A DNA stretch of 64,000 nucleotides from positions 230,356-294,355 of the forward strand of contig JAUSOD010000091.1 in assembly GCA_030656215.1 (NCBI GenBank). The letters run 5' to 3'. This DNA is from Azoarcus sp. Lineage in GTDB: Bacteria; Pseudomonadota; Gammaproteobacteria; Burkholderiales; Rhodocyclaceae. The position numbers and the translations under genes were made by a program. The notes below the pieces were generated by a model. That model had not been told where the DNA came from. It was given only the letters and a program-made list of their open reading frames with translations, and searched no databases. Positions 6,349 through 57,335 of the stretch are shown here, piece after piece. Every line of letters starts with the position of its first letter. Position 1 is the stretch's first letter.

Positions 6349-9087
6349 TCAGTGCGCCTCGTCCCAGTTATCCCCCGCCCCCACCTCCACCAGTAGTGGC
6401 ACGGCCAGTTCGGCCACGCCGCCCATCAGCCGCGGCAGTTCCGCGCGGATGGTGTCTAGTTCGGCGTTCGGCACCTCCAGTACCAGTTCATCATGCACCT
6501 GCAGCACCAGCCGCGACTTCAGCTCGGACCCCGCCAGCCAGCCGTGCACCGCGATCATTGATTTCTTGATCAGGTCGGCCGCGGTGCCCTGCATCGGCGC
6601 GTTGATCGCCGCGCGCTCGGCGGCCTGCCGGCGCCCGGCCTGACTGGAGCGGATCTCGGGCAGATGCAGCCGCCGGCCGAAAAGGGTTTCGACGTAGCCC
6701 TGGGTCTTGGCTTCGGCCTTGGTGCGCTCCATGTAGTCGGCAACACCGGGATAACGGGCGAAGTAGCGGTCGATCCAGGCCTGGGCGGCACCGCGCTCAA
6801 TACCGAGGTTTTTGGCCAGGCCGTGGGCGCTCATGCCGTAGATAAGCCCGAAGTTGATCACCTTGGCGTAGCGGCGCTGCTCGCTGCTGACTTCGGCCGG
6901 CGTAACGCCGAAGACCTCGGCAGCGGTGGCACGGTGCACGTCCTCGCCGCGGGCGAAGGCTTCCAGCAGGCGGGCGTCGCCCGACAGGTGGGCCATGATG
7001 CGCAGCTCGATCTGCGAGTAGTCGGCGGAGACGATGAGGTGATCGCGCGGGGCGATGAAGGCGGCGCGGATGCGGCGGCCTTCGGCGGTGCGGATCGGGA
7101 TGTTCTGCAGATTGGGCTCGGAGCTCGCGAGCCGCCCGGTGACCGCAACCGCCTGCGAGAAGCTGGTGTGCACCCGGCCGGTTTTCGGATTGACCATGCG
7201 CGGCAGCTTGTCGGCATAGGTGCTCTTGAGCTTGGCCAGGCCGCGGTGTTCGAGCAGCAGCTTGGGGAGCGGGTAGTCCTCGGCGAGCTGCTGCAGCACC
7301 TCTTCGTCGGTGGAGGGCTGGCCGGTGGCGGTTTTCTTGACCGTCGGCAGGCCGAGCTTGCCGAACAGGATCTCGCCGAGCTGCTTGGGCGAACCGAGAT
7401 TGAAGGGCTGGCCTGCAAGTTCATGGGCCTCGCGCTCGAGCCCTACCAGCCGACGGCCGAGTTCTTCGCCATGCTGGGCGAGCAGGAAGGGGTCGATCAG
7501 CACGCCGATGCGTTCCATGTCGAGCAGCACCGACAGTGTCGGCAGTTCGACCTCGCGATAGAGCACTTCGAGCCGCGGTGCGGCCTCGACCTGCGGCCAC
7601 AGCGCGCGGTGCAGGCGCAGGGTGATGTCGGCATCCTCGGCAGCGTATTCGGTGGCACGCTCTACCGCGACCTCGTCAAAGCCGATCTGCTTGGCCCCCT
7701 TGCCGCACACCTCGGCGTAGGGAATGGTGGTGAGGCCGAGGTGGCGCTTGGCGAGCGAATCCATGTCGTGGCTGCGGTCTGACTCCAGCACATAGGATTC
7801 GAGCAGGGTGTCGTGCGCAATGCCGCCCAGGCGAATGCCGTGGTTGAGCAGCACGTGCGCGTCGTACTTGAGGTTCTGGCCGACCTTGGCGTGGGCCTCG
7901 GATGCCAGCCAGGGCTGGAGCCGCTCCAGCACCTCGGCGATCGGCAGCTGATCCGGCGCATCGGCGCCGCGGTGGGCGAGCGGCAGGTAGGCTGCCTCGC
8001 CCTCCACCATGGAAAACGACATGCCGACGAGCTTCGCCGCCATCGGGTCGAGGCTGGTGGTCTCGGTATCGAAGGCAGCGAGTTCGGCGCCGTTCAGCTT
8101 CTCCAGCCAGCGCTCGAAAGTGGCCCAGTCGAGGATGGCCTCATAGCCGACGCGGTGTGCCGCAGGATCAACGGGAGCGGAATCCAGCAGTGAACCAGTG
8201 GGGTCAACCGCGTCCGACTCCATTGACTTCGGCAGTGCTCCTGCGTCCGCCAGATCCTTCAGCCAGCCGCGGAACTCGAAGCGCTCGTAGAGTGCTTTCA
8301 ATGCCACCTTGTCGTCTTCCCGCGCAGGCAGATCCTCGAGTTGCAACGGTAGCTCAAGGTCCGTCGCCACCGTGACCAGGCGCTTGCCCAGGGGCAGAAA
8401 TTCGAGGTGTTTGCGCAGGTTCTCGCCCACCTTGCCGCCGACCTTGTCGGCATTGGCCACCAGATTGTCGAGCGTGCCGTATTCGGTGAGCCACTTCACG
8501 GCCGTCTTGGGGCCGCACTTCTCGACGCCAGGCACGTTGTCCACGGTGTCGCCGACAAGCGCGAGGTAATCGACAATGCGCTCCGGCGGCACCCCGAACT
8601 TGGCCGTCACGCCGGCCTCGTCGAGCACCTCCTCACTCATCGTGTTCACCCAGCGCACGCCGGGGCGCACCAGCTGCGTGAGGTCCTTGTCGCCGGTCGA
8701 GATCACCACCTCCCAGCCACGCTCGGCGGCCTGCCGGGTGAGCGTGCCGATGACGTCGTCGGCTTCCACCCCCTCGACCGACAGCAGCGGCCAGCCTTCC
8801 GCCCGCACCGCTTCGTGCAGCGGTTCGATCTGCGCGCGCAGGTCGTCGGGCATAGACGGGCGCTGGGCCTTGTAGTCGGGATACCAGTCGTCGCGAAAGG
8901 TCTTGCCCTTGGCATCGAACACGCAGGCGCGGTACTCCGCCTTGTAGTCGCTCTCGAGCCGACGTAGCATCGACAGCACGCCCCGGATCGCACCCGTCGG
9001 CTCACCCTTCGCGGTGCGCAGATCGGGAAGCGCATGAAACGCGCGGTAGAGGTAACTGGAACCATCGACAAGCAACAGGGTGGGCAT
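6349..9087 (-). CDS. polA: DNA polymerase I
   Basis: Repairs DNA and removes Okazaki primers. The 912-residue protein has all three family domains. A 5'-3' exonuclease domain begins at PTLLLVDGSSYLYRAF. A proofreading 3'-5' exonuclease domain has an intact metal-site motif FDTETTSLDP near residue 345. The polymerase domain carries motif A (SADYSQIELRIMAHLSGD), motif B (RRYAKVINFGLIYGMS) and motif C (QVHDELVLEVP). The start at 9087 was chosen because the protein family begins with MPTLLLVDGSS; AAGGA lies nine bases upstream. The frame is open for another 97 codons without family similarity. It is divergent from the LOG-family gene across about 110 nt. Ends GDNWDEAH. Confidence 0.98.
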   Translation of the reverse strand: MPTLLLVDGSSYLYRAFHALPDLRTAKGEPTGAIRGVLSMLRRLESDYKAEYRACVFDAKGKTFRDDWYPDYKAQRPSMPDDLRAQIEPLHEAVRAEGWPLLSVEGVEADDVIGTLTRQAAERGWEVVISTGDKDLTQLVRPGVRWVNTMSEEVLDEAGVTAKFGVPPERIVDYLALVGDTVDNVPGVEKCGPKTAVKWLTEYGTLDNLVANADKVGGKVGENLRKHLEFLPLGKRLVTVATDLELPLQLEDLPAREDDKVALKALYERFEFRGWLKDLADAGALPKSMESDAVDPTGSLLDSAPVDPAAHRVGYEAILDWATFERWLEKLNGAELAAFDTETTSLDPMAAKLVGMSFSMVEGEAAYLPLAHRGADAPDQLPIAEVLERLQPWLASEAHAKVGQNLKYDAHVLLNHGIRLGGIAHDTLLESYVLESDRSHDMDSLAKRHLGLTTIPYAEVCGKGAKQIGFDEVAVERATEYAAEDADITLRLHRALWPQVEAAPRLEVLYREVELPTLSVLLDMERIGVLIDPFLLAQHGEELGRRLVGLEREAHELAGQPFNLGSPKQLGEILFGKLGLPTVKKTATGQPSTDEEVLQQLAEDYPLPKLLLEHRGLAKLKSTYADKLPRMVNPKTGRVHTSFSQAVAVTGRLASSEPNLQNIPIRTAEGRRIRAAFIAPRDHLIVSADYSQIELRIMAHLSGDARLLEAFARGEDVHRATAAEVFGVTPAEVSSEQRRYAKVINFGLIYGMSAHGLAKNLGIERGAAQAWIDRYFARYPGVADYMERTKAEAKTQGYVETLFGRRLHLPEIRSSQAGRRQAAERAAINAPMQGTAADLIKKSMIAVHGWLAGSELKSRLVLQVHDELVLEVPNAELDTIRAELPRLMGGVAELAVPLLVEVGAGDNWDEAH

Positions 9088-42432: not shown

Positions 42433-43395
42433 TCAGCCTTCCGCTGGCCAGCCAGGCGCCAGCTGGATGAGACGGGTCGCCGACTTCCGGCATTCCTCGC
42501 GCACCGCCGGGTGGAGCGCCGTGAGCCAGCGTTCGGGCAAGGCGTTCTCGCCAGCCAATGCGCCCATCACCATACCGGCGATGGCGCCGGTGGTGTCGGC
42601 GTCGCCGCCACGATTGACGATGTCGATCAGTACCGCCTCAAAGCCCAGGCTACGCTCCATGGCCTGAAAGACCGCGCGCATGGTGTCCACAATGTAGCCG
42701 CTGGGATTATCGCAGCGGCTACCAGCGAAACCGAATGCCGGCAGTAGCGTCGCCAACGCCTGCGCACGTGTCAGCACCTGCTGCTGCGAATCTCCGGCCA
42801 GCGCAGCCTGAACCATACCGACCACGCATAAGGTGGCCGCATCGGTGAGCGGGTTGTGATGGGTCACCCGCGCCTGCACCAGGGCAGCATGCCCGATCGC
42901 GTCCGGGTCACCGCCGAAACCGGCAAGTGCAACCGGCAGGCAGCGCATGGTGGCGCCGTTGCCCGCATCGGACGATGGCGGCGCTTCGGTGCTGCCGGTG
43001 AGGCGCCAGCGCACGATGCCGCGGCGTACGGTGTTGCCGATATCCACCGGCTTGCTTCGCATCCAGCCGTCGAATGCCAGGGCGCAGGCCTCGGCCGAGG
43101 GCGGCCCCGCTGCCGCAAGCCAGGCCTCGGCCAGGGCCAGGGTCATCGTGGTGTCATCGGTGACTGCACCGGCGGCGAGCCGCAGCCAGCCGCCACCCCG
43201 GATCCGGTCATGCACACCGTACTGCGCGCCGATTTCGCGTGGGGTCATGAACTCCACCGTGGCACCGAGCGCATCTCCGATGGCCAGACCGAGCATGGCG
43301 CCGCGAGCGCGCGCGAGCAGTAGCGCTCTACCCGATTCAGCGGGCAAACGCTGGCGGGTAAGGCCCGACGGCATCAACGATGCGAGGAGGGTCAC
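42433..43395 (-). CDS. draG: ADP-ribosyl-[dinitrogen reductase] glycohydrolase
   Basis: Removes ADP-ribose from an arginine of nitrogenase iron protein and so restores its activity after ammonium or dark switch-off. The 320-residue protein has the dinuclear Mn/Mg site motifs: GDALGATVEFMTPREI, AGAVTDDTTMTLALAEAWL near residue 80, and NRGGDADTTGAIAGMVMGAL near residue 260. This set separates DraG-type enzymes from other ADP-ribosylhydrolases. The start is GTG at 43395, overlapping the nifQ stop (GTGA); an ATG at 43374 is an alternative. It is the last gene of the nifB operon. The partner transferase DraT is not in the window. Confidence 0.88.
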   Translation of the reverse strand: MTLLASLMPSGLTRQRLPAESGRALLLARARGAMLGLAIGDALGATVEFMTPREIGAQYGVHDRIRGGGWLRLAAGAVTDDTTMTLALAEAWLAAAGPPSAEACALAFDGWMRSKPVDIGNTVRRGIVRWRLTGSTEAPPSSDAGNGATMRCLPVALAGFGGDPDAIGHAALVQARVTHHNPLTDAATLCVVGMVQAALAGDSQQQVLTRAQALATLLPAFGFAGSRCDNPSGYIVDTMRAVFQAMERSLGFEAVLIDIVNRGGDADTTGAIAGMVMGALAGENALPERWLTALHPAVREECRKSATRLIQLAPGWPAEG

Positions 43396-43967
43396 ACTTC
43401 GGGCCCGAAGCAGGTGGCGTAGTCGGTGCACGCCTCGCATGAAGGCGAGGCACAGACGAAGATCCCTTCACGCTGGCACAGCTCGCGGTAGAGGAACTTC
43501 TTCCACTTCATGTCGCGGTTGTTGGCAAGAGCAAGCGCCGGAAAGTTGAGTGCGATCAGCTGTGACAGCTCGCGCCGCGATGGCAGGCCGAGGTCCTGCC
43601 ACAGATGATCGTCCCCCATACATGCAGTGGCGACGATTTGCGCCACCTCGGCGGCACCGGCCACCTCGGCATCCGCTTCGCCATCGATGAAGCGGACCAG
43701 ATCCTCGAATTCCGGATGCAGGGTCGGTGTCTGGCTCAGATCGGATCTGGGCTGCCACATCAGCCGCGGAAAGTGCTGCGCGATGAGCGCGGCAAAACGA
43801 GCCGGGCCAAGGCCGAAGTCGGCCGGCAGCATGCCGTCGCCCAAGGTCCAGCCAGCAATCAGATGAGCAAGGAGTTCATCGTTGGGATAACCCGCCGCAT
43901 GCTGCATCAGATGCGCGTGCAGCGCGGCGCGGGCGGGCGACGGGCGAAAACTCAGCGGTGCAAGCAT
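43392..43967 (-). CDS. nifQ: NifQ, molybdenum donor for FeMo-cofactor
   Basis: NifQ binds a Mo-Fe-S cluster and gives molybdenum to the NifEN/NifH complex during FeMo-co synthesis. The 191-residue protein ends with the diagnostic cysteine motif CASPSCEACTDYATC (C-x4-C-x2-C-x5-C) in the last 20 residues, preceded by MKWKKFLYRELCQREGIFV. The start at 43967 (MLAPLSFRPS) has AGG eight bases upstream; the frame is open to 44003. It lies in the nifB operon between a [2Fe-2S] ferredoxin gene and draG, overlapping draG by 4 nt. Confidence 0.94.
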   Translation of the reverse strand: MLAPLSFRPSPARAALHAHLMQHAAGYPNDELLAHLIAGWTLGDGMLPADFGLGPARFAALIAQHFPRLMWQPRSDLSQTPTLHPEFEDLVRFIDGEADAEVAGAAEVAQIVATACMGDDHLWQDLGLPSRRELSQLIALNFPALALANNRDMKWKKFLYRELCQREGIFVCASPSCEACTDYATCFGPEV

Positions 43968-44045
43968 GATGAATACCTCATGTTGATTCAGGTACCGGCA
44001 CACCGTGCTGCGGTCCGCACAGTGCGGCGTGCCGGATCGGACGGA

Positions 44046-44408
44046 TCAATACTCGACCAGCAGATCCTCGTCGCGCAGGATCATCTGGCAGGCCAGGCGC
44101 CACGGCGTGACCGCAATATCCTCGACCCGCATGCGCTCGATCTCGTCGAGGGTGACTTTCTTGTGCTCGCGCAGCACAACGAGCTCCTTGTCGGTCAGGC
44201 GGCTGGCCATCGAGTCGGTGTGGGTACCGTGGTTGGCCAGCGGGGTGATCTTGACCATGCAGGTGGCGCATTCGCCGTCTTCACAGGAAAAATCGATCGG
44301 GATATGGTTATCCTTGGCGATCTTGAGGATGGTCTGGGTATGCGAGCCGGCTACCGCGTAGACGGTCTTATCCTTGTGAATCGGGCTCGAGAAAGTGATG
44401 TTGGGCAT
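44046..44408 (-). CDS. [2Fe-2S] ferredoxin resembling the Shethna FeSII protective protein
   Basis: A 120-residue ferredoxin with one [2Fe-2S] site: CEDGECATC near residue 43 and the fourth cysteine in WRLACQMILRDEDLLVEY at the C-terminus. The start ITFSSPIHKDKTVYAVAGSH and the end DEDLLVEY resemble the FeSII (Shethna) protein of Azotobacter vinelandii. That protein binds oxidised nitrogenase and holds it in an inactive, oxygen-safe complex. The middle segment (LTDKELVVLREHKKVTLDEI) is the longer loop that separates FeSII from ordinary adrenodoxin types. The resemblance is judged from memory and must be aligned. It sits in the nifB operon before nifQ. GGAG lies seven bases before the ATG. Confidence 0.75.
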   Translation of the reverse strand: MPNITFSSPIHKDKTVYAVAGSHTQTILKIAKDNHIPIDFSCEDGECATCMVKITPLANHGTHTDSMASRLTDKELVVLREHKKVTLDEIERMRVEDIAVTPWRLACQMILRDEDLLVEY

Positions 44409-44491
44409 GGTGAAACTCCACAGTGGTTGAATGGACGAACGGCCTCTCTGCCGGTTGTTGTAGGGTTGGGCCCGCGGGTTTGGCCCGCGTT

Positions 44492-44779
44492 TCAGCCCGG
44501 GCGCACGACGACTACCCCGCCCAGCACCTGGGCCTGACAGGCGAGCCGGTTCTTGACCCCGGCGTAATTTTCCTTGAGGACCTTGTCCTCGAGGACCGAG
44601 GGGTTGGCGAGATTCTCGGCACCGGACACGATTTTCATCATGCAGGTGCCGCACTCGCCTTCCCGGCAGCCATAAGTGAGTCCAGCACCGATCTGTTCCG
44701 ATACCTCGATGAGACGGGTACCGGCCGGCACCGTGACGGTGACGCCGATATCCTCGAAGGTGACCTGAGCCTTGGGCAT
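44492..44779 (-). CDS. [2Fe-2S] ferredoxin of the nif operon
   Basis: A 95-residue plant-type ferredoxin. The cluster ligands are CREGECGTC near residue 38 (C-x4-C-x2-C) and the fourth cysteine in RLACQAQVLGG. It is shorter than its neighbour and lacks the extra loop of FeSII-like proteins, so it is probably an electron carrier. The start MPKAQVTFEDIGVTVTV is typical. It lies 10 nt downstream of the flavodiiron gene and 83 nt upstream of the FeSII-like gene, within the nifB operon, so NifA should control it. Its redox partners are unknown; the flavodiiron protein is the nearest candidate. Confidence 0.88.
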   Translation of the reverse strand: MPKAQVTFEDIGVTVTVPAGTRLIEVSEQIGAGLTYGCREGECGTCMMKIVSGAENLANPSVLEDKVLKENYAGVKNRLACQAQVLGGVVVVRPG

Positions 44780-44789
44780 GATGAAAGTC

Positions 44790-46079
44790 CTATGCGGTAA
44801 GTGCGCTGGGCGCGGTGAAATCGACATAACGGGGCGCGGCGCGGCCCACCAGGTGCTCGGCCAGTTCGCGACCCAGCGCGGCACAGCTGGCAAGTTCTTC
44901 TTCGGTGGGAATGAGCTTGACCTTCACCCCGGGGCGCGGCACCCGCATCTTCAGGCCGCGCAGACGGTCCTCGACCATATTGACCGCCTCGCCGCTCCAG
45001 CCGTAGGAGCCGAAGGCGGCGCCGAACTTGCCCTTGACCTTGACCAGGGTCAGCGAGGACAACAGGTCCCACACCGGCTTGACCGCATCACCATTGATCG
45101 TCGGCGAGCCGAACACGAGGCCATCGGCCTCCTCGATCAGGTCGACGAAGGGGCCGGGGTCGCCGCCGGCGATGTCGTACAGCGATACACGCACGCCTTC
45201 GACCCCCTCGGCACCGTCGCGCACCGCTTCGGCCATGCGTGCCGTGTTGCCATAGGCGCTGATGTAGAACACCAGTAAGGTCTTCTCCCGCTCGCCGGCT
45301 TCGTTGGCGAGCAGGGGGGCGGCGAGCTGACGATAGCGGCGCACGTAACTGGCCGGTGCATCGCGCAATATCGGGCCGTGCGCGGGCGCGATCAACCGGA
45401 TCGCCAGCGGCTCGATCAGATCGAGTGCGGTCAGCACATGCTCGCGGAAGGGCCGCATGATGTGCTGGTAGTAGTAATCGAAAGAGAACCGGAAGTCGCC
45501 CACGCGATCGTTGAACAGGCGGGTGTCGCAAAAGTGGCAGCCAAACACGTCGCCGGAGAACAGCAGCCCCTCTTCCTCGACCCAGGTGCACTGGGTGTCG
45601 GGCCAGTGCAGATAAGGGGTGTGAATGAAACGCAGGGTGCGTCCGCCGAGATCGATGCGAGTGTCTTCATCGACCGGCACGATACGGGTCTCGTCGAGAC
45701 CGTCCTTGACCAGGCCCTTGAGCATTTTCAAGGCCGGGTAGGACAGATAGACGGTGGCCTGCGGCGCCGCCGCCAGCAGCTGCGGCAGCGCCCCGGTATG
45801 GTCGGGCTCGAGGTGGTTGAGCACGATCGCGCGGATTTCGTCAGGCCGGCAGACCGACCACAGGCGCGCAAAAAACGCATCTGCGAATTCGGCCTTGACC
45901 GTGTCGATCACCGCCACACCGTCGCTGCCACGCACCGCATAGGCGTTGTAACTGGTGCCGTTGGCCGTGCGCAGGATGATGTCGAACTGGCGCAGGTCCG
46001 GATCGAGTGCGCCCACCCAATGCACATCAGGAGCAATGGCGACGGGTTCCCCGGGACGGACGGCGCCTGTGCGACTCAT
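44790..46079 (-). CDS. Flavodiiron protein (FprA-type)
   Basis: A 429-residue two-domain protein that reduces O2 or NO to water or N2O. The N-terminal beta-lactamase-like domain has all diiron ligands: NHLEPDHTG (His, Glu, Asp, His), LHWPD, FSGDVFGCHF and IAPAHGPI. The C-terminal flavodoxin domain begins VFYISAYGNTARMAEAV and has the FMN loop GSPTINGDAVKP. It lacks a fused rubredoxin, so the electron donor should be separate, possibly the adjacent ferredoxin. It sits inside the nifB operon, where an oxygen-scavenging role protecting nitrogenase is likely, though electron transfer to nitrogenase has also been proposed for such proteins. Confidence 0.9.
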   Translation of the reverse strand: MSRTGAVRPGEPVAIAPDVHWVGALDPDLRQFDIILRTANGTSYNAYAVRGSDGVAVIDTVKAEFADAFFARLWSVCRPDEIRAIVLNHLEPDHTGALPQLLAAAPQATVYLSYPALKMLKGLVKDGLDETRIVPVDEDTRIDLGGRTLRFIHTPYLHWPDTQCTWVEEEGLLFSGDVFGCHFCDTRLFNDRVGDFRFSFDYYYQHIMRPFREHVLTALDLIEPLAIRLIAPAHGPILRDAPASYVRRYRQLAAPLLANEAGEREKTLLVFYISAYGNTARMAEAVRDGAEGVEGVRVSLYDIAGGDPGPFVDLIEEADGLVFGSPTINGDAVKPVWDLLSSLTLVKVKGKFGAAFGSYGWSGEAVNMVEDRLRGLKMRVPRPGVKVKLIPTEEELASCAALGRELAEHLVGRAAPRYVDFTAPSALTA

Positions 46080-46167: not shown

Positions 46168-46650
46168 TCATGTCAGACCTGCGCCCGAGGGCGGCGCACA
46201 GTATGCGGCCGGATTGGCGTAACGACTGGACTCGCGCTGCGGGTCGCCATGGTGGTGATGCTCGCCGTGGCTGCAGCCTTGAGGAACGGGAACATCCGGC
46301 AGCACCACCCCCCGCGCACCCAACCACTCGGTATCGAACCCGCTGCAGCGCTGGCCGCGAACGTCGAGCAAGGGACGCCGGATCAGGATCGGATCGGCGA
46401 CGAGGCGGGCAAGCGCCCCGTCCGGACTGAAGGTGTCCGGATCCACCTCTCCGCTCTTGATCGCGGGCGCAGCGGGATTGAACCACTCTGCCACTGGCCG
46501 GGCTCCGAAGAACTCGGCCAGCAGTGCCGGCGTCCAGGCTTCGGTGAGCAGGTCGCGCACCTCCACCTGACAGCCGGCTGCTTCAAGCAGGGCGATCTGG
46601 CGGGTGTTGGTGGCGCAACCGGGCTTCCACCACAACGTTACTGACGACAT
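46168..46650 (-). CDS. ArsC/Spx-like nitrogenase-associated protein
   Basis: A 160-residue thioredoxin-fold protein of the nitrogenase-associated ArsC branch. It starts VTLWWKPGCATNTRQIALLE, with a single cysteine where ArsC has its catalytic one. WFNPAAPAIKSGEVDPDTF and DPILIRRPLLDVRGQ are the ArsC-like blocks. The C-terminus adds a segment with two cysteines and a His cluster (CSHGEHHHHGD) not seen in plain ArsC; it could bind metal. The function in nitrogen fixation is unknown. Its ATG lies inside the end of fdxN (13-nt overlap), so it is translationally coupled. Confidence 0.85.
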   Translation of the reverse strand: MSSVTLWWKPGCATNTRQIALLEAAGCQVEVRDLLTEAWTPALLAEFFGARPVAEWFNPAAPAIKSGEVDPDTFSPDGALARLVADPILIRRPLLDVRGQRCSGFDTEWLGARGVVLPDVPVPQGCSHGEHHHHGDPQRESSRYANPAAYCAPPSGAGLT

Positions 46651-46928
46651 TCCGCTTCCCTCAACTGCTCGAGCAGGTGGAGTGGAATGCCCGTGAGCGA
46701 TCCGGGCGGGTTAAGCGGCTCGCCGTACTCGTCGACAATCGCGCCTTCGATCGGACAAATTTCAGCACACTGCGGCAGATCGTGGTCGCCGAGACACTCG
46801 GTGCATTTGTCCGGGTTGATGAAGAACAGCGGCTCACCCGGCTGCATCACGGCAGAGATGGCCTTGTTCGGGCACAGCGGTTCGCAGGCAAAACAACCCA
46901 CACAGGAATCGACGATTTCGAGTGACAT
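46638..46928 (-). CDS. fdxN: 2[4Fe-4S] ferredoxin FdxN
   Basis: A 96-residue ferredoxin with two [4Fe-4S] sites: CVGCFACEPLCPNKAI and CTECLGDHDLPQCAEICPI. The second site has the long insertion between the second and third cysteines typical of NifB-linked FdxN. It is known in other diazotrophs to feed electrons to NifB or nitrogenase. AGGAG lies eight bases upstream of the ATG. It is 13 nt downstream of nifB, the usual position, and overlaps the next gene by 13 nt. Confidence 0.93.
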   Translation of the reverse strand: MSLEIVDSCVGCFACEPLCPNKAISAVMQPGEPLFFINPDKCTECLGDHDLPQCAEICPIEGAIVDEYGEPLNPPGSLTGIPLHLLEQLREAECRQ

Positions 46929-46941
46929 GTTCGTGCTCCTC

Positions 46942-48444
46942 TCAGGCTGCCTGTGCGGCAACGCCGCCGGCGGGCAAGGCCAGCTTGCCGGCCGCAGCCA
47001 TCTCGTCATACACCGCGCGGATCGCCTCTTCGATCGGCTCCATCGCGTGCTCGCCATTGGGCTTGATTCCGGCTTTCTCCAGATCGGCCCAGGGCTCGAA
47101 GCCGATCTTGCTCGCAAGCAGCACCTCGACGCCCTCGAGCGACTTGATGATGCCGCCGAGCACGGTCTCGCCGTCGCCACAGGATTCGTCACCCATGCAG
47201 TAGGCGGTGCATTTACGATGACCGAGGAAGCGGTGCTCCTTGGGGCCGATCTCGTACACCAGGAACTCGTGGGCGTGGCCGAAGTGCTCGTTGATCACGC
47301 CGCCACCCTTGGTCGCGACCGCGATGCGGATGTTGCGCGTGGCCGGTGCGGCCTCTTCGACAGCGGGATTGAACTTCGGCGCAGCCTTGAGCGCACGCTT
47401 CATTTCGAGCTCGGTGGTGATGGCGTCGTGCACCTTGGCCCGCTCGACCATGGCCGTGGCGTAGTCGATTTCCATGGTGTCGATCTTGTCGAGGGTGAAC
47501 TCGTCGCCGCGATCCTCGCCCAGCAGGCCGACCGCATCGGCACGGCACTGACGGCAGTGGCGCATCATCGACATGTCGCCGGAACAGTCGTCCTGCAGCG
47601 CCTGCAGTTCGAGCGGGGTCGGTTCGCGCTGCCCCATGATGCCGTAGTAGGTGCCATGTTCGGCCTCGGCGATCAGCGGCATCACGTTGTGCAGGAAAGC
47701 GCCCTTGGACTTGACGATACGCGACACTTCCTTGAGGTGGTGGTCGTTCACCCCCGGGATCATCACCGAGTTGACCTTCACCAGAATGCCGCGCGCGGTC
47801 AGCATCTCGAGCCCTTTTTGCTGCTGCTCGATCAGGATCTTCGCGCCCTCGATGCCGCGGATACGCTTGTTCTCCCAGAAGATCCACGGGTAGATCTGCG
47901 CGCCGATCTCGGGATCGACGCAGTTGATCGTGATCGTGACGTGGTCGATGTTGTGCTTGGCGAGCTCATCCACACAGTCGGGCAGCGACAGGCCGTTGGT
48001 CGACACACAGAGCTTGATGTCGGGCGCCTGCTCCGAGAGCTGACGGAAGGTCTCGAAGGTGCGCTCGGGGTTGGCGAGTGGGTCGCCAGGGCCGGCAATG
48101 CCGAGGACCGTCATCTGCGGGATCGCAGTGGCCACGGCCAGGGTTTTCTTGACTGCCTGGTCGGGCGTCATCAGCTCGGATACGACACCCGGGCGCGACT
48201 CGTTGGAGCAGTCGTACTTGCGGTTGCAGTAGTTGCACTGGATGTTGCAGGCCGGGGCCACGGCCACGTGCATGCGGGCAAAGTAGTGATGGGCCTCCTC
48301 CGAATAACAGGGGTGGTCCTGCACCTTGGAGCGGATGTGATCGGGCAGATGCGAGAGGCCATCCGGAGCCGTACCACATCCACTTTCGCTACAGCCGCCC
48401 GAAGCTTCGACAGGCGCCGTATTGCTGATGACCGGGAGTTCCAT
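46942..48444 (-). CDS. nifB: Nitrogenase cofactor biosynthesis radical SAM protein NifB
   Basis: Builds NifB-co, the 8Fe-9S-C core of the nitrogenase cofactor, with SAM as source of the central carbide. The 500-residue protein has the radical SAM cysteines in ACNIQCNYCNRKYDC near residue 60 and further Fe-S cysteines in SCRQCRADAVGL-like HCRQCRADA near residue 285. The GIAGPGDPLANP loop and VKVNSVMIPGVNDHH are strongly conserved. Residues from about 370 form a NifX/NafY-like domain (NIRIAVATKGGGVINEHFGH). It leads an operon of eight genes whose promoter is sigma-54 dependent. Confidence 0.98.
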   Translation of the reverse strand: MELPVISNTAPVEASGGCSESGCGTAPDGLSHLPDHIRSKVQDHPCYSEEAHHYFARMHVAVAPACNIQCNYCNRKYDCSNESRPGVVSELMTPDQAVKKTLAVATAIPQMTVLGIAGPGDPLANPERTFETFRQLSEQAPDIKLCVSTNGLSLPDCVDELAKHNIDHVTITINCVDPEIGAQIYPWIFWENKRIRGIEGAKILIEQQQKGLEMLTARGILVKVNSVMIPGVNDHHLKEVSRIVKSKGAFLHNVMPLIAEAEHGTYYGIMGQREPTPLELQALQDDCSGDMSMMRHCRQCRADAVGLLGEDRGDEFTLDKIDTMEIDYATAMVERAKVHDAITTELEMKRALKAAPKFNPAVEEAAPATRNIRIAVATKGGGVINEHFGHAHEFLVYEIGPKEHRFLGHRKCTAYCMGDESCGDGETVLGGIIKSLEGVEVLLASKIGFEPWADLEKAGIKPNGEHAMEPIEEAIRAVYDEMAAAGKLALPAGGVAAQAA

Positions 48445-48482: not shown

Positions 48483-48498
48483 TGCAATCGGCGTGCCA
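48483..48498 (-). promoter_or_regulatory. Sigma-54 (-24/-12) promoter of nifB
   Basis: On the minus strand the site reads TGGCACGCCGATTGCA, matching the sigma-54 consensus at both the GG and the GC elements with the correct spacing. It lies 39 nt before the nifB ATG and downstream of two NifA sites and an IHF site. Confidence 0.93.
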
Positions 48499-48559: not shown

Positions 48560-48575
48560 TGTCAGCTTTGGAACA
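48560..48575. promoter_or_regulatory. NifA upstream activator site 1 of nifB
   Basis: TGT-N10-ACA with exact spacing, 62 bp upstream of the -24 element. Confidence 0.88.
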
Positions 48576-48583
48576 GGGTGCCG

Positions 48584-48599
48584 TGTGCGACTCCGGACA
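48584..48599. promoter_or_regulatory. NifA upstream activator site 2 of nifB
   Basis: A second exact TGT-N10-ACA, 24 bp (centre to centre) from site 1. It lies between the nifB promoter and the end of nifA, on the same helical face within about two turns. Confidence 0.85.
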
Positions 48600-51804: not shown

Positions 51805-51820
51805 AGCAAACGTTGTGCCA
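51805..51820 (-). promoter_or_regulatory. Sigma-54 promoter of nifLA
   Basis: On the minus strand the site reads TGGCACAACGTTTGCT, matching the -24 GG and -12 GC elements with correct spacing. It lies about 35 nt upstream of the nifL ATG. A sigma-54 promoter on nifLA means either NtrC-type activation or NifA autoactivation; a NifA site 112 bp upstream favours autoactivation. Confidence 0.82.
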
Positions 51821-52040: not shown

Positions 52041-52056
52041 TGGCACGCCTCATGCA
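52041..52056 (+). promoter_or_regulatory. Sigma-54 promoter of the rnf operon
   Basis: TGGCACGCCTCATGCA: the -24 element is perfect; the -12 element is ATGC in place of TTGC but keeps the essential GC and its spacing. It lies about 40 nt before the rnfA ATG and downstream of the shared NifA site. Confidence 0.85.
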
Positions 52057-55869: not shown

Positions 55870-56592
55870 ATGAGTCCGACCCCAGCCCCGACCTCAGTGC
55901 CAAGCTCAGCGCCAACGTCAACGCCGACGCCCGTCAAGAGTCCGCCTGGCGGTCCGCCCATTGACGCCCTGTGGTACCAGGGGGTGTCGCTCGGCATCGT
56001 CGCCCTCGCCGCCAGCGCTGCCCTGGCCTTTGCCCACCAGGCCACCGGCCCGGCCATTGCCGATGCTGCGGCCCGCGACATGGCGGCCTCGCTGGCGCAG
56101 GTGCTGCCGCAGGACTTTGCCGACAATGACCTGCTTGCGGACACCCTGAGCCTGAAGGTGGAAGGCGCCTCGCCGTTGACGGTTTATCAAGCCCGGCGCG
56201 CAGCGCAGGTGCGAGGCGTGATTTTTCCGGTGCTTGCGAAGGGCTATGCGGGCCCGATTCACATCGTGATGGGCGTCGACCGCGACGGCCGACTCCTTGG
56301 CGTACGCATCACCCGCCACACCGAAACACCCGGTCTTGGCGACAAGATCGAGGTTGCGAAGCACCCATGGGTGCACGATTTTGCCGGGAAGGCGCTCGGC
56401 ACCCCGCCCGCAACGCGCTGGGCGGTGAAAAAGGATGGCGGCGACTTCGACCAGTTTGCCGGCGCCACCATCACCCCGCGGGCCGTGGTCAACGCGGTGC
56501 GAGGCGGGTTGGAATTATTCGCCACCCATCGCGCCGCGATGCTGGGCGAAGACACCCCGCTGGCCACTGCCGGCAAGGAGCAAACACCATGA
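55870..56592 (+). CDS. rnfG: Rnf complex subunit RnfG (covalent FMN)
   Basis: A 240-residue subunit with one N-terminal span (YQGVSLGIVALAASAALAFA) and a periplasmic FMN-binding domain. The covalent FMN site is in DQFAGATITPRAVVNAVRGG near residue 205, with Thr of the S/A-G-A-T motif. GFV-type core blocks such as GVDRDGRLLGVRITRHTETP and GLGDKIE are complete. The N-terminal 30 residues are unusually rich in Pro, Thr and Ser (TPAPTSVPSSAPTSTPTPVK), which looks like a disordered cytoplasmic leader. Its stop overlaps rnfE by 4 nt. Confidence 0.94.
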   Translation: MSPTPAPTSVPSSAPTSTPTPVKSPPGGPPIDALWYQGVSLGIVALAASAALAFAHQATGPAIADAAARDMAASLAQVLPQDFADNDLLADTLSLKVEGASPLTVYQARRAAQVRGVIFPVLAKGYAGPIHIVMGVDRDGRLLGVRITRHTETPGLGDKIEVAKHPWVHDFAGKALGTPPATRWAVKKDGGDFDQFAGATITPRAVVNAVRGGLELFATHRAAMLGEDTPLATAGKEQTP

Positions 56593-57335
56593 GCACAAGC
56601 GCAACGGCATCCGCAGGCGACGCCGTGCCCCCCGCAAAACCGGCCCGGCCCTCCATCCCCTTCGGCACCATCTTCCGCGACGGCCTGTGGCGGCAGAACG
56701 TGGTCTCGACCCAGATGCTGGCGTTATGCCCGCTGCTGGCGGTCACCAGCACCGCCACCAATGGCCTCGGCATGGGTCTGGCCTCGACCGCGGTGCTGAT
56801 CCTGTCCAACGTCATCGTGGCCACGATCCGCAACTGGGTGAGTCCGAGCGTGCGGATCCCGACCTTCATCGTGCTCATCGCCACGCTGGTGACGCTGGTC
56901 GACATGGTCCTCAATGCCTGGCTGCACGATCTGCACAAGGTGCTGGGTCTGTTCATTGCACTGATCGTGGTCAATTGCGCCATCCTGGGCCGCGCCGAAG
57001 CCTTCGCCTCACGCCAGCCAGTGGTCGCCGCGGCGGCCGACGGGGTGGCAATGGGCCTGGGCTTCACCCTTGCGCTGGTGGTGTTGGGCGCCACCCGCGA
57101 GGTGCTTGGCAGTGGCACCCTGTTTGCCAGTGCCAGCCTGCTGCTGGGCGAGTCCTTCCGCTTCCTGGAAGTGACCGTGATCCCTGACTACAAGGGCTTC
57201 CTGATGATGATCCTGCCCCCGGGCGGCTTTCTCGCCCTTGGTTTTCTGATGGCCCTGCAGCGCCACCTTGAAACCCGCCGCGCCCGCAGCCCCGGCACCC
57301 CCGATCCGGTGGCGGCAGAGCGCGTGCCTGCCTGA
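56589..57335 (+). CDS. rnfE: Rnf complex subunit RnfE
   Basis: A 248-residue six-span membrane subunit, paralogous to RnfA in opposite topology. It contains the RnfE/NqrD core LALCPLLAVTSTATNGLGMG, with the conserved Cys, and FIALIVVNCAILGRAEAFAS, also with Cys. The N-terminal 25 residues precede the core. The ATG at 56589 overlaps the rnfG stop. It is followed by rnfH after 12 nt. Confidence 0.94.
   Translation: MSTSATASAGDAVPPAKPARPSIPFGTIFRDGLWRQNVVSTQMLALCPLLAVTSTATNGLGMGLASTAVLILSNVIVATIRNWVSPSVRIPTFIVLIATLVTLVDMVLNAWLHDLHKVLGLFIALIVVNCAILGRAEAFASRQPVVAAAADGVAMGLGFTLALVVLGATREVLGSGTLFASASLLLGESFRFLEVTVIPDYKGFLMMILPPGGFLALGFLMALQRHLETRRARSPGTPDPVAAERVPA

Follow-up and report, generated by a model that had tools for sequence, protein, structure and literature searches.

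A flavodiiron protein, an FdC-type ferredoxin and an FeSII-family protein in the nifB operon of an Azoarcus: a candidate accessory oxygen defence

The 64,000-nucleotide stretch of Azoarcus sp. DNA analysed here (hereafter the window) carries a nifB operon on its minus strand and, as a preliminary description of this DNA correctly placed them, three adjacent genes inside that operon at 44046-46079: a flavodiiron protein (FDP), a [2Fe-2S] ferredoxin and a protein of the FeSII family. On the minus strand the order is nifL, nifA and then nifB-fdx-nifO-FDP-Fd-FeSII-nifQ-draG. The three genes under study and the other features of the operon are as follows.

44790..46079, minus strand: class A FDP, FprA-like, 429 aa (PF19583 and PF00258 above cut-off)
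44492..44779, minus strand: [2Fe-2S] ferredoxin, FdC (FdIV)-like, 95 aa (E 1.3e-36 to 9i2a)
44046..44408, minus strand: FeSII-family (Shethna protein II) [2Fe-2S] protein, 120 aa (E 1.4e-21 to 5ffi)
48560..48599, minus strand: two NifA-type upstream activator boxes (TGT-N10-ACA), 48599-48584 and 48575-48560, at -155 and -131 from the nifB ATG (consensus match only)
48483..48498, minus strand: sigma-54 (-24/-12) promoter-like site before nifB (11/11 scored consensus bases)
46942..48444, minus strand: nifB (TIGR01290, 647 bits against a cut-off of 344)
46638..46928, minus strand: 4Fe-4S dicluster ferredoxin gene between nifB and nifO (Fer4_7 above cut-off; YfhL-type model below cut-off)
46168..46650, minus strand: nifO-like "nitrogenase-associated protein", ArsC-like (TIGR01616, 137 bits against a cut-off of 109), a gene that we take to be nifO
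43392..44003, minus strand: nifQ (PF04891, E 3.4e-52)
42433..43440, minus strand: draG, ADP-ribosyl-dinitrogen reductase hydrolase (TIGR02662, 343.6 bits against a cut-off of 337)

The three proteins and their relatives

The FDP consists, according to Pfam, of an ODP/lactamase domain (PF19583) and a flavodoxin domain (PF00258), and no rubredoxin or flavin-reductase match was found in it with Pfam at E 0.001; class A FDPs normally have no rubredoxin domain, and its absence is not unusual. Its six diiron ligands, His89, Glu91, Asp93, His158, Asp177 and His234, are invariant in 81/81 aligned FDPs (the 80 best loci described below and the window FDP), which confirms the complete ligand set without rubredoxin domain that had been read from the sequence beforehand. 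In the same alignment, Lys occupies position 62 in 80 proteins (the other has Arg), and Tyr occupies position 276 in all 81. These positions align with residues 52 and 262 of the NO-reducing E. coli flavorubredoxin, natively Asp52 and Ser262, for which D52K and S262Y mutant structures exist (entry titles). Because Lys62 and Tyr276 replace this Asp/Ser pair, they point to O2 as the substrate of the FDP; in Entamoeba FDP1, Lys and Tyr at these two positions reportedly accompany a preference for O2. The pair is not universal among FDPs: of the controls, the flavorubredoxin of genome G576, which is E. coli-like, carries Asp/Ser, two other FDPs (genomes G978 and G1078) His/Tyr, and Moorella FprA Tyr/Trp.

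By sequence the FDP matches FprA 1ycf (E 5.5e-67), which is also the first-ranked Foldseek hit of its structural model. Against most full-length FDPs, this model gives TM-scores of about 0.5 and an rmsd of about 9 A; the relative placement of the domains in the model is probably uncertain and the fold search therefore adds little beyond the sequence match. The closest FDPs in named records are those of Azoarcus and Pseudothauera (82-90% identical). Three genomes (G461, G886 and G1047) show in-frame stops within near-complete FDP matches, due to sequencing error or decay.

The adjoining ferredoxin aligns over residues 3-94 with 9i2a, the FdC of Rhodobacter capsulatus (E 1.3e-36, 57/92 identical), and has the CX4CX2C...C motif, the cysteines of which are invariant in 17/17 sequences. 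In R. capsulatus, fprA and fdxC belong to one NifA-dependent operon (PMC6925177, PMC10936413); the potential of FdC is -275 mV, the protein has been put forward as the donor of FprA (PMC10936413), and it is reported to interact with and reduce an FprA-type partner (PMC12223475, PMC10936413). Loss of fdxC slows N2-fixing growth of phototrophic, anaerobic cells (PMC10936413) and can be compensated by extra fdxN (PMC12223475).

The FeSII-like protein matches A. vinelandii FeSII over residues 2-120 (phmmer E 1.4e-21), and its four cysteines are invariant in 15/15 aligned sequences. Its AlphaFold model is of moderate confidence (mean pLDDT 74, with residues 60-66 below 50) and displays the adrenodoxin-like [2Fe-2S] fold, the four cysteines and the N-loop insert. 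The best Foldseek match of the model is 9cu1_N, FeSII in the nitrogenase complex/filament (44% identity), and the top 14 chains are all Azotobacter FeSII. The similarity suggested by the preliminary description thus holds in the direct alignment to A. vinelandii FeSII, in the fold search and in the tree presented below. The possibility that a generic ferredoxin match was the source of this likeness was rejected, as A. vinelandii FeSII scores 80 bits and the best non-FeSII chain 25, and the tree agrees.

The tree of the FeSII family comprises 82 proteins: 44 operon-type sequences, taken as every third of 132, together with all of the 36 others and 2 from Azotobacter, the operon type being separated from other FeSII by profile score (165 bits) and not by context alone. 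Rooted on tandem paralogues, the operon-type sequences form a clade nested among other FeSII, including those of Azotobacter, and are split off by a branch with an SH-aLRT of 100, on an alignment for which the program issued warnings about the small number of columns and about long branches meeting. The tandem paralogues come from five loci (L107, L108, L111, L112 and L115) in which a second, diverged FeSII gene stands in tandem with FeSII; the five form a clade of their own. Among the non-tandem "other" FeSII, 16/31 have nifH or nifD (at least 60% identity) in the fetched stretch, and the tree label "nifHDK_type" is to be read loosely, since only these 16 are near nifH/nifD.

Recurrence of the block and joint occurrence of FDP and FeSII

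Two samples allowed us to follow the three genes across genomes. The first, chosen by FDP, contains the best 80 loci of 486 FDP relatives (65-90% identity), from hosts among which are Azoarcus, Zoogloea, Azonexus, Thiobacillus, Gallionella, Methylomonas, Thiothrix and Thiodiazotropha, with many metagenome bins. FdC lies on the same strand within 3 kb of FDP in 79/80 of these loci (within 276 bases in 77/80), the exception being L045, and FeSII lies within 3 kb of FDP in 73/80; three of the seven loci without FeSII end within or just past FdC. The order of the block recurs across beta- and gammaproteobacterial hosts.

The second sample was not chosen by FDP. As nifB was found in 55/399 genomes of the order and 46/397 of the phylum, we searched 80 nifB genomes, namely 37 of the 55, with no genus giving more than two, together with all 43 others, some being shared with the first sample. 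A nif-type FDP is present in 17 of them, FdC in 21 and an FeSII-family protein in 45; an 18th FDP match, in G576, is a different FDP. The FDP adjoins FdC in 17/17, the three genes are contiguous in 14/17, and FeSII is found somewhere in the genome in 17/17. A unique arrangement is therefore rejected and the preliminary view of a non-standard module has to be revised: it is no one-off, being shared by 14 of the 17 sampled diazotrophs that bear the FDP. FdC without FDP occurs in the nifB operon of G066, G330 and G338 and elsewhere in G741.

Some loci depart from the common order. Loci L138-L140 and 15 others among L149-L220 are nifB operons without FDP upstream of FdC, the remaining order being kept; FdC then follows nifO, or the 4Fe-4S ferredoxin gene where no nifO was detected. 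L135, L136 and L137 have FDP and two consecutive FdC-like matches, of which the first is shorter, with FeSII elsewhere; no nifB match was found in the fetched pieces of these three loci.

Within the family of the window, FdC is present in 116/395 genomes. We retained 80 of the 87 FdC genomes with a completeness of at least 90% and a contamination no higher than 5% (of the other seven, six had been covered already and G1129 was omitted); as FdC was the criterion of choice, this set cannot tell how often FdC is lost, on which only the nifB draw informs. FDP and FeSII were counted from whole-genome searches, as the tblastn thresholds of the neighbourhood scans missed some FeSII, for example at L097. 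FDP is present in 65/80 genomes (67 matches minus two of another FDP type) and full-length FeSII in 69/80 (70 matches minus one 25-residue match in G764); 63 genomes have both, 2 FDP only, 6 FeSII only and 9 neither (Fisher p 1.0e-6, or 8e-6 if the G764 remnant is scored as FeSII). In the 15 family genomes without FDP, the FdC gene is in line behind nifB in all 15. The remnant in G764, a genome without FDP, is a broken FeSII gene just ahead of draG, ending after 31 residues (L149, about 6881-6976).

On a NifB tree of 78 of these genomes (no NifB lay in the fetched piece of the other two), there are at least 11 changes of state for FDP and at least 8 for FeSII. A Pagel-type test for dependence between the two gives a likelihood ratio of 20.8 (nominal p 3.4e-4), in a kind of test that tends to be liberal. 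FDP and FeSII tend to occur or to be absent together, a suggestive pattern.

Transcription unit and genome setting

From nifB to draG, neighbouring genes are separated by 13, -13, 88, 10, 83, 42 and -49 bases, the longer gaps lying before FDP (88) and before the FeSII gene (83). With the listed starts, nifQ and draG overlap by 49 bases (43392-43440), and the draG start is possibly set too far upstream. Promoters were sought with the patterns TGGCAC-N5-TTGC[AT] for sigma-54 (11 bases scored) and TGT-N10-ACA for NifA boxes. The window contains two perfect sigma-54 sites, one 54 to 39 bases ahead of the nifB start and the other before nifL. In the 321, 121 and 192 bases before FDP, FdC and FeSII, respectively, there is neither a NifA box nor a sigma-54 site of at least 7/11 (GG and GC fixed); one 8/11 match before nifQ falls within the FeSII coding region. 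Because the promoter pattern is found ahead of nifB and not before FDP, the ferredoxin or FeSII, and because the gaps are mostly short, a single NifA-driven transcript spanning the nifB operon is likely. The co-expression with nifB under NifA that had been proposed for the three genes is thus supported, as far as sequence can tell, by a NifA-type promoter and an operon-like layout.

The site before nifL (51805-51820, minus strand) faces a 10/11 site before an rnfA-like gene (52041-52056, plus strand), so that sigma-54 dependence also appears to hold for the two divergent operons, nifLA and rnf. The rnf-like genes run on the opposite strand from 52098; the one at 56367-57335 was confirmed (PF02508) and the remaining rnf names were given by eye. 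The source genome, of 5.08 Mb, has nifH on a different contig and contains one full-length FDP of nif type and one FeSII-family gene, a second, weak FDP match spanning only residues 43-181. In Azoarcus olearius BH72, draG1 is 24-fold up in N2-fixing cells, and fdxD is among the nif-cluster genes whose induction was missed by microarrays and recovered by RNA-Seq (PMC8467165); the fdxD of that study presumably corresponds to the FeSII gene.

A possible oxygen defence and its alternatives

We give a little better than an even chance to the following interpretation: the window carries a NifA-driven nifB operon that encodes an FdC-type nif electron carrier and, with FDP and FeSII, an accessory two-part O2 defence. 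Under N2-fixing conditions, NifA and sigma-54 would transcribe the entire operon, and the FDP, reduced by the FdC-type ferredoxin, would turn cytoplasmic O2 to water. If O2 still rose, the FeSII-type protein would be oxidised and would bind to the MoFe and Fe proteins, forming an inactive complex that resists O2 and persists until reductant returns. This "scavenge, then lock" sequence is a proposed order of events.

Several observations weigh against such a defence. The rule that connects Lys/Tyr with O2 is based on few enzymes, and deletion of fprA in R. capsulatus reportedly had little effect on N2 fixation, even microaerobically (Jouanneau, 2000). FeSII is found without a nif-type FDP in 28 of the 45 FeSII-bearing genomes of the nifB draw. 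On the well-supported branches of the NifB tree there are 7 independent pairs that differ in FDP, of which FeSII differs in the same sense in about 3, in the opposite sense in 0.1 and not at all in 4 (median p 0.25), so that phylogenetic support for the association is thin.

A prediction of the oxygen-defence interpretation, that the pair is lost where oxidases are absent, was checked in 45 chosen genomes, 15 without and 30 with FDP, and was not borne out. Haem-copper-family genes are present in 44/45, and the sole exception, G889, carries FDP. With a threshold of 385 bits, set by the range of the confirmed ccoN (408) and ctaD (550) of the source genome, cbb3/aa3 subunit I-like genes occur in 14/15 FDP-less and 29/30 FDP-bearing genomes, the FDP-less G1021 having only a lower-scoring member of the family; A-type-like genes (at least 480 bits) occur in 12/15 FDP-less against 15/30 FDP-bearing genomes (p 0.06). 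FDP-less genomes thus mostly keep their oxidases, and the FDP/FeSII pair is therefore no mark of aerobic life; in a reading made after the fact, it could be of use to microaerobes whose respiratory protection is weak. The source genome also encodes a 459-aa protein of the haem-copper oxidase family (L224, 473-1849, minus strand), possibly an NO reductase subunit, for which no NCBIfam match was found at E 1e-10.

The residues of FeSII also count here. Lys14, Lys15 and His55 of Azotobacter FeSII are linked to nitrogenase binding (PMC3045800); the window protein keeps Lys14 and has Thr and Pro at the other two positions. The operon type as a whole has Lys14 in 132/132 sequences, Lys15 in 0/132 (Thr in 132/132) and His55 in 3/132. 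Among the 36 other family members, Lys14 occurs in 4, Lys15 in 1 and His55 in 6, and the lysine pair may thus be a trait of Azotobacter.

Finally, FdC is also encoded in nifB operons without FDP, or without both FDP and FeSII. The proposal that this ferredoxin is the electron donor of the FDP therefore stands in part: the match to FdC, the proposed donor of FprA in R. capsulatus, argues for it, and the FDP-less nifB operons with FdC argue against this being its only role. Since fdxC loss slows phototrophic N2-fixing growth, a role in oxygen protection alone is not easily squared with FdC, and this protein is probably not merely the donor of the FDP for oxygen protection and may act as a wider nif electron carrier.

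In the alternative that fares best, though we consider it unlikely, FDP and FdC form an electron valve, tuning redox for FeMo-co assembly (NifB, NifQ) or for nitrogenase, and FeSII is the sole oxygen-protection part. The remaining named genes of the operon do serve cofactor assembly or nitrogenase control, FdC is in the nifB operon without FDP in 15/80 family genomes, phototrophic R. capsulatus fixes N2 more slowly once fdxC is deleted (PMC10936413), and metallocluster assembly is discussed as one hypothesis for separate ferredoxin pathways (PMC12223475). A valve leaves unexplained, however, the association of FDP with FeSII and the Lys/Tyr residues.

Slightly less probable is that the FDP is mainly an NO reductase guarding NifB, nitrogenase and Fe-S clusters from nitric oxide, with FeSII adjacent for separate reasons. 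The solved structures nearest by sequence (1ycf and E. coli flavorubredoxin) are named NO reductases and some hosts bear the name of a denitrifier (Thiobacillus denitrificans bins L030 and L033), but the hosts are metabolically mixed by genus name (including Methylomonas, Gallionella and Thiothrix) and the FDP has the mutant-type, not the native, residues at the positions of E. coli D52K and S262Y, with the proviso already made on what Lys/Tyr means for O2. FprA itself is described as possibly an oxidase or an NO reductase (PMC12223475). A frozen operon of unrelated helpers, its order due to common ancestry and without joint function, is very improbable: relatives share history and the FDP-FeSII association is weaker on well-supported branches alone, but the order recurs in beta- and gammaproteobacteria although FDP changes at least 11 and FeSII at least 8 times on the best NifB tree.

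Parts of the proposed defence have counterparts in known systems. As in the window, the fprA-fdxCN operon of R. capsulatus has FprA beside an FdC-type [2Fe-2S] ferredoxin under NifA control (PMC6925177, PMC10936413); it runs on to fdxN, rcc03282, rnfF and rcc03281 (PMC6925177), whereas the pair of the window lies between nifO and the FeSII gene in the nifB operon. FprA is likened to the window FDP by description, the identity figure (57/92) concerning FdC. The FeSII-like protein shares with A. vinelandii FeSII the homology over residues 2-120, the four cysteines, Lys14 and a predicted fold nearest to the nitrogenase-bound form, but belongs to a separate clade (SH-aLRT 100, few columns), has KDKT/RDKT for HNKK and no His55, and is encoded by a gene joined to the FDP-FdC pair. 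R. capsulatus FdxD, likened to it by description, is FeSII-like, is activated by NifA and has been linked to the protection of Mo-nitrogenase from O2 (PMC8777916, PMC10936413); its gene is beside nifH (PMC7294313), and not in the nifB operon as in the window. For the FDP, the role that we propose resembles that of Flv3B in Anabaena heterocysts, which enables N2-fixing growth in air (PMC6579470), although Flv3B, unlike the window FDP, is of the cyanobacterial three-domain type (PMC4390876).

The individual parts, the pairing of an FDP with a ferredoxin in a nif operon (R. capsulatus) and FeSII-like protection in that organism are thus already known. The fixed three-gene block in the nifB operon, the Lys/Tyr pair of its FDP and the FDP-FeSII association appear to be new. 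In the portions of the open-access literature available to us we found no description of an FDP-FdC-FeSII block in the nifB operon, which is weak evidence of absence, and papers on flavodiiron proteins together with nif or nifB mostly concern, by title, cyanobacteria or other oxygenic phototrophs.

A more elaborate and doubtful version of the two-part defence is a self-resetting oxygen circuit, in which one FdC-type ferredoxin would feed both the FDP and oxidised FeSII, which would then release nitrogenase; clearance of O2 would come first, after which N2 fixation would be restarted by the same reductant. If true, this circuit would account for the joint presence or absence of FDP and FeSII and for the FDP hardly ever occurring without the ferredoxin while the reverse does occur, and it would suggest which reductant undoes the FeSII lock.

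Both FprA and the adjoining FdC are described as being of unknown role (PMC10936413, PMC12223475), and the position of the FprA-FdC pair beside FeSII, together with the association of FprA and FeSII across genomes, offers a direct way into the question of what FprA does. If the two-part defence is real, the block would also be a compact, co-regulated gene set for efforts to run nitrogenase in air.

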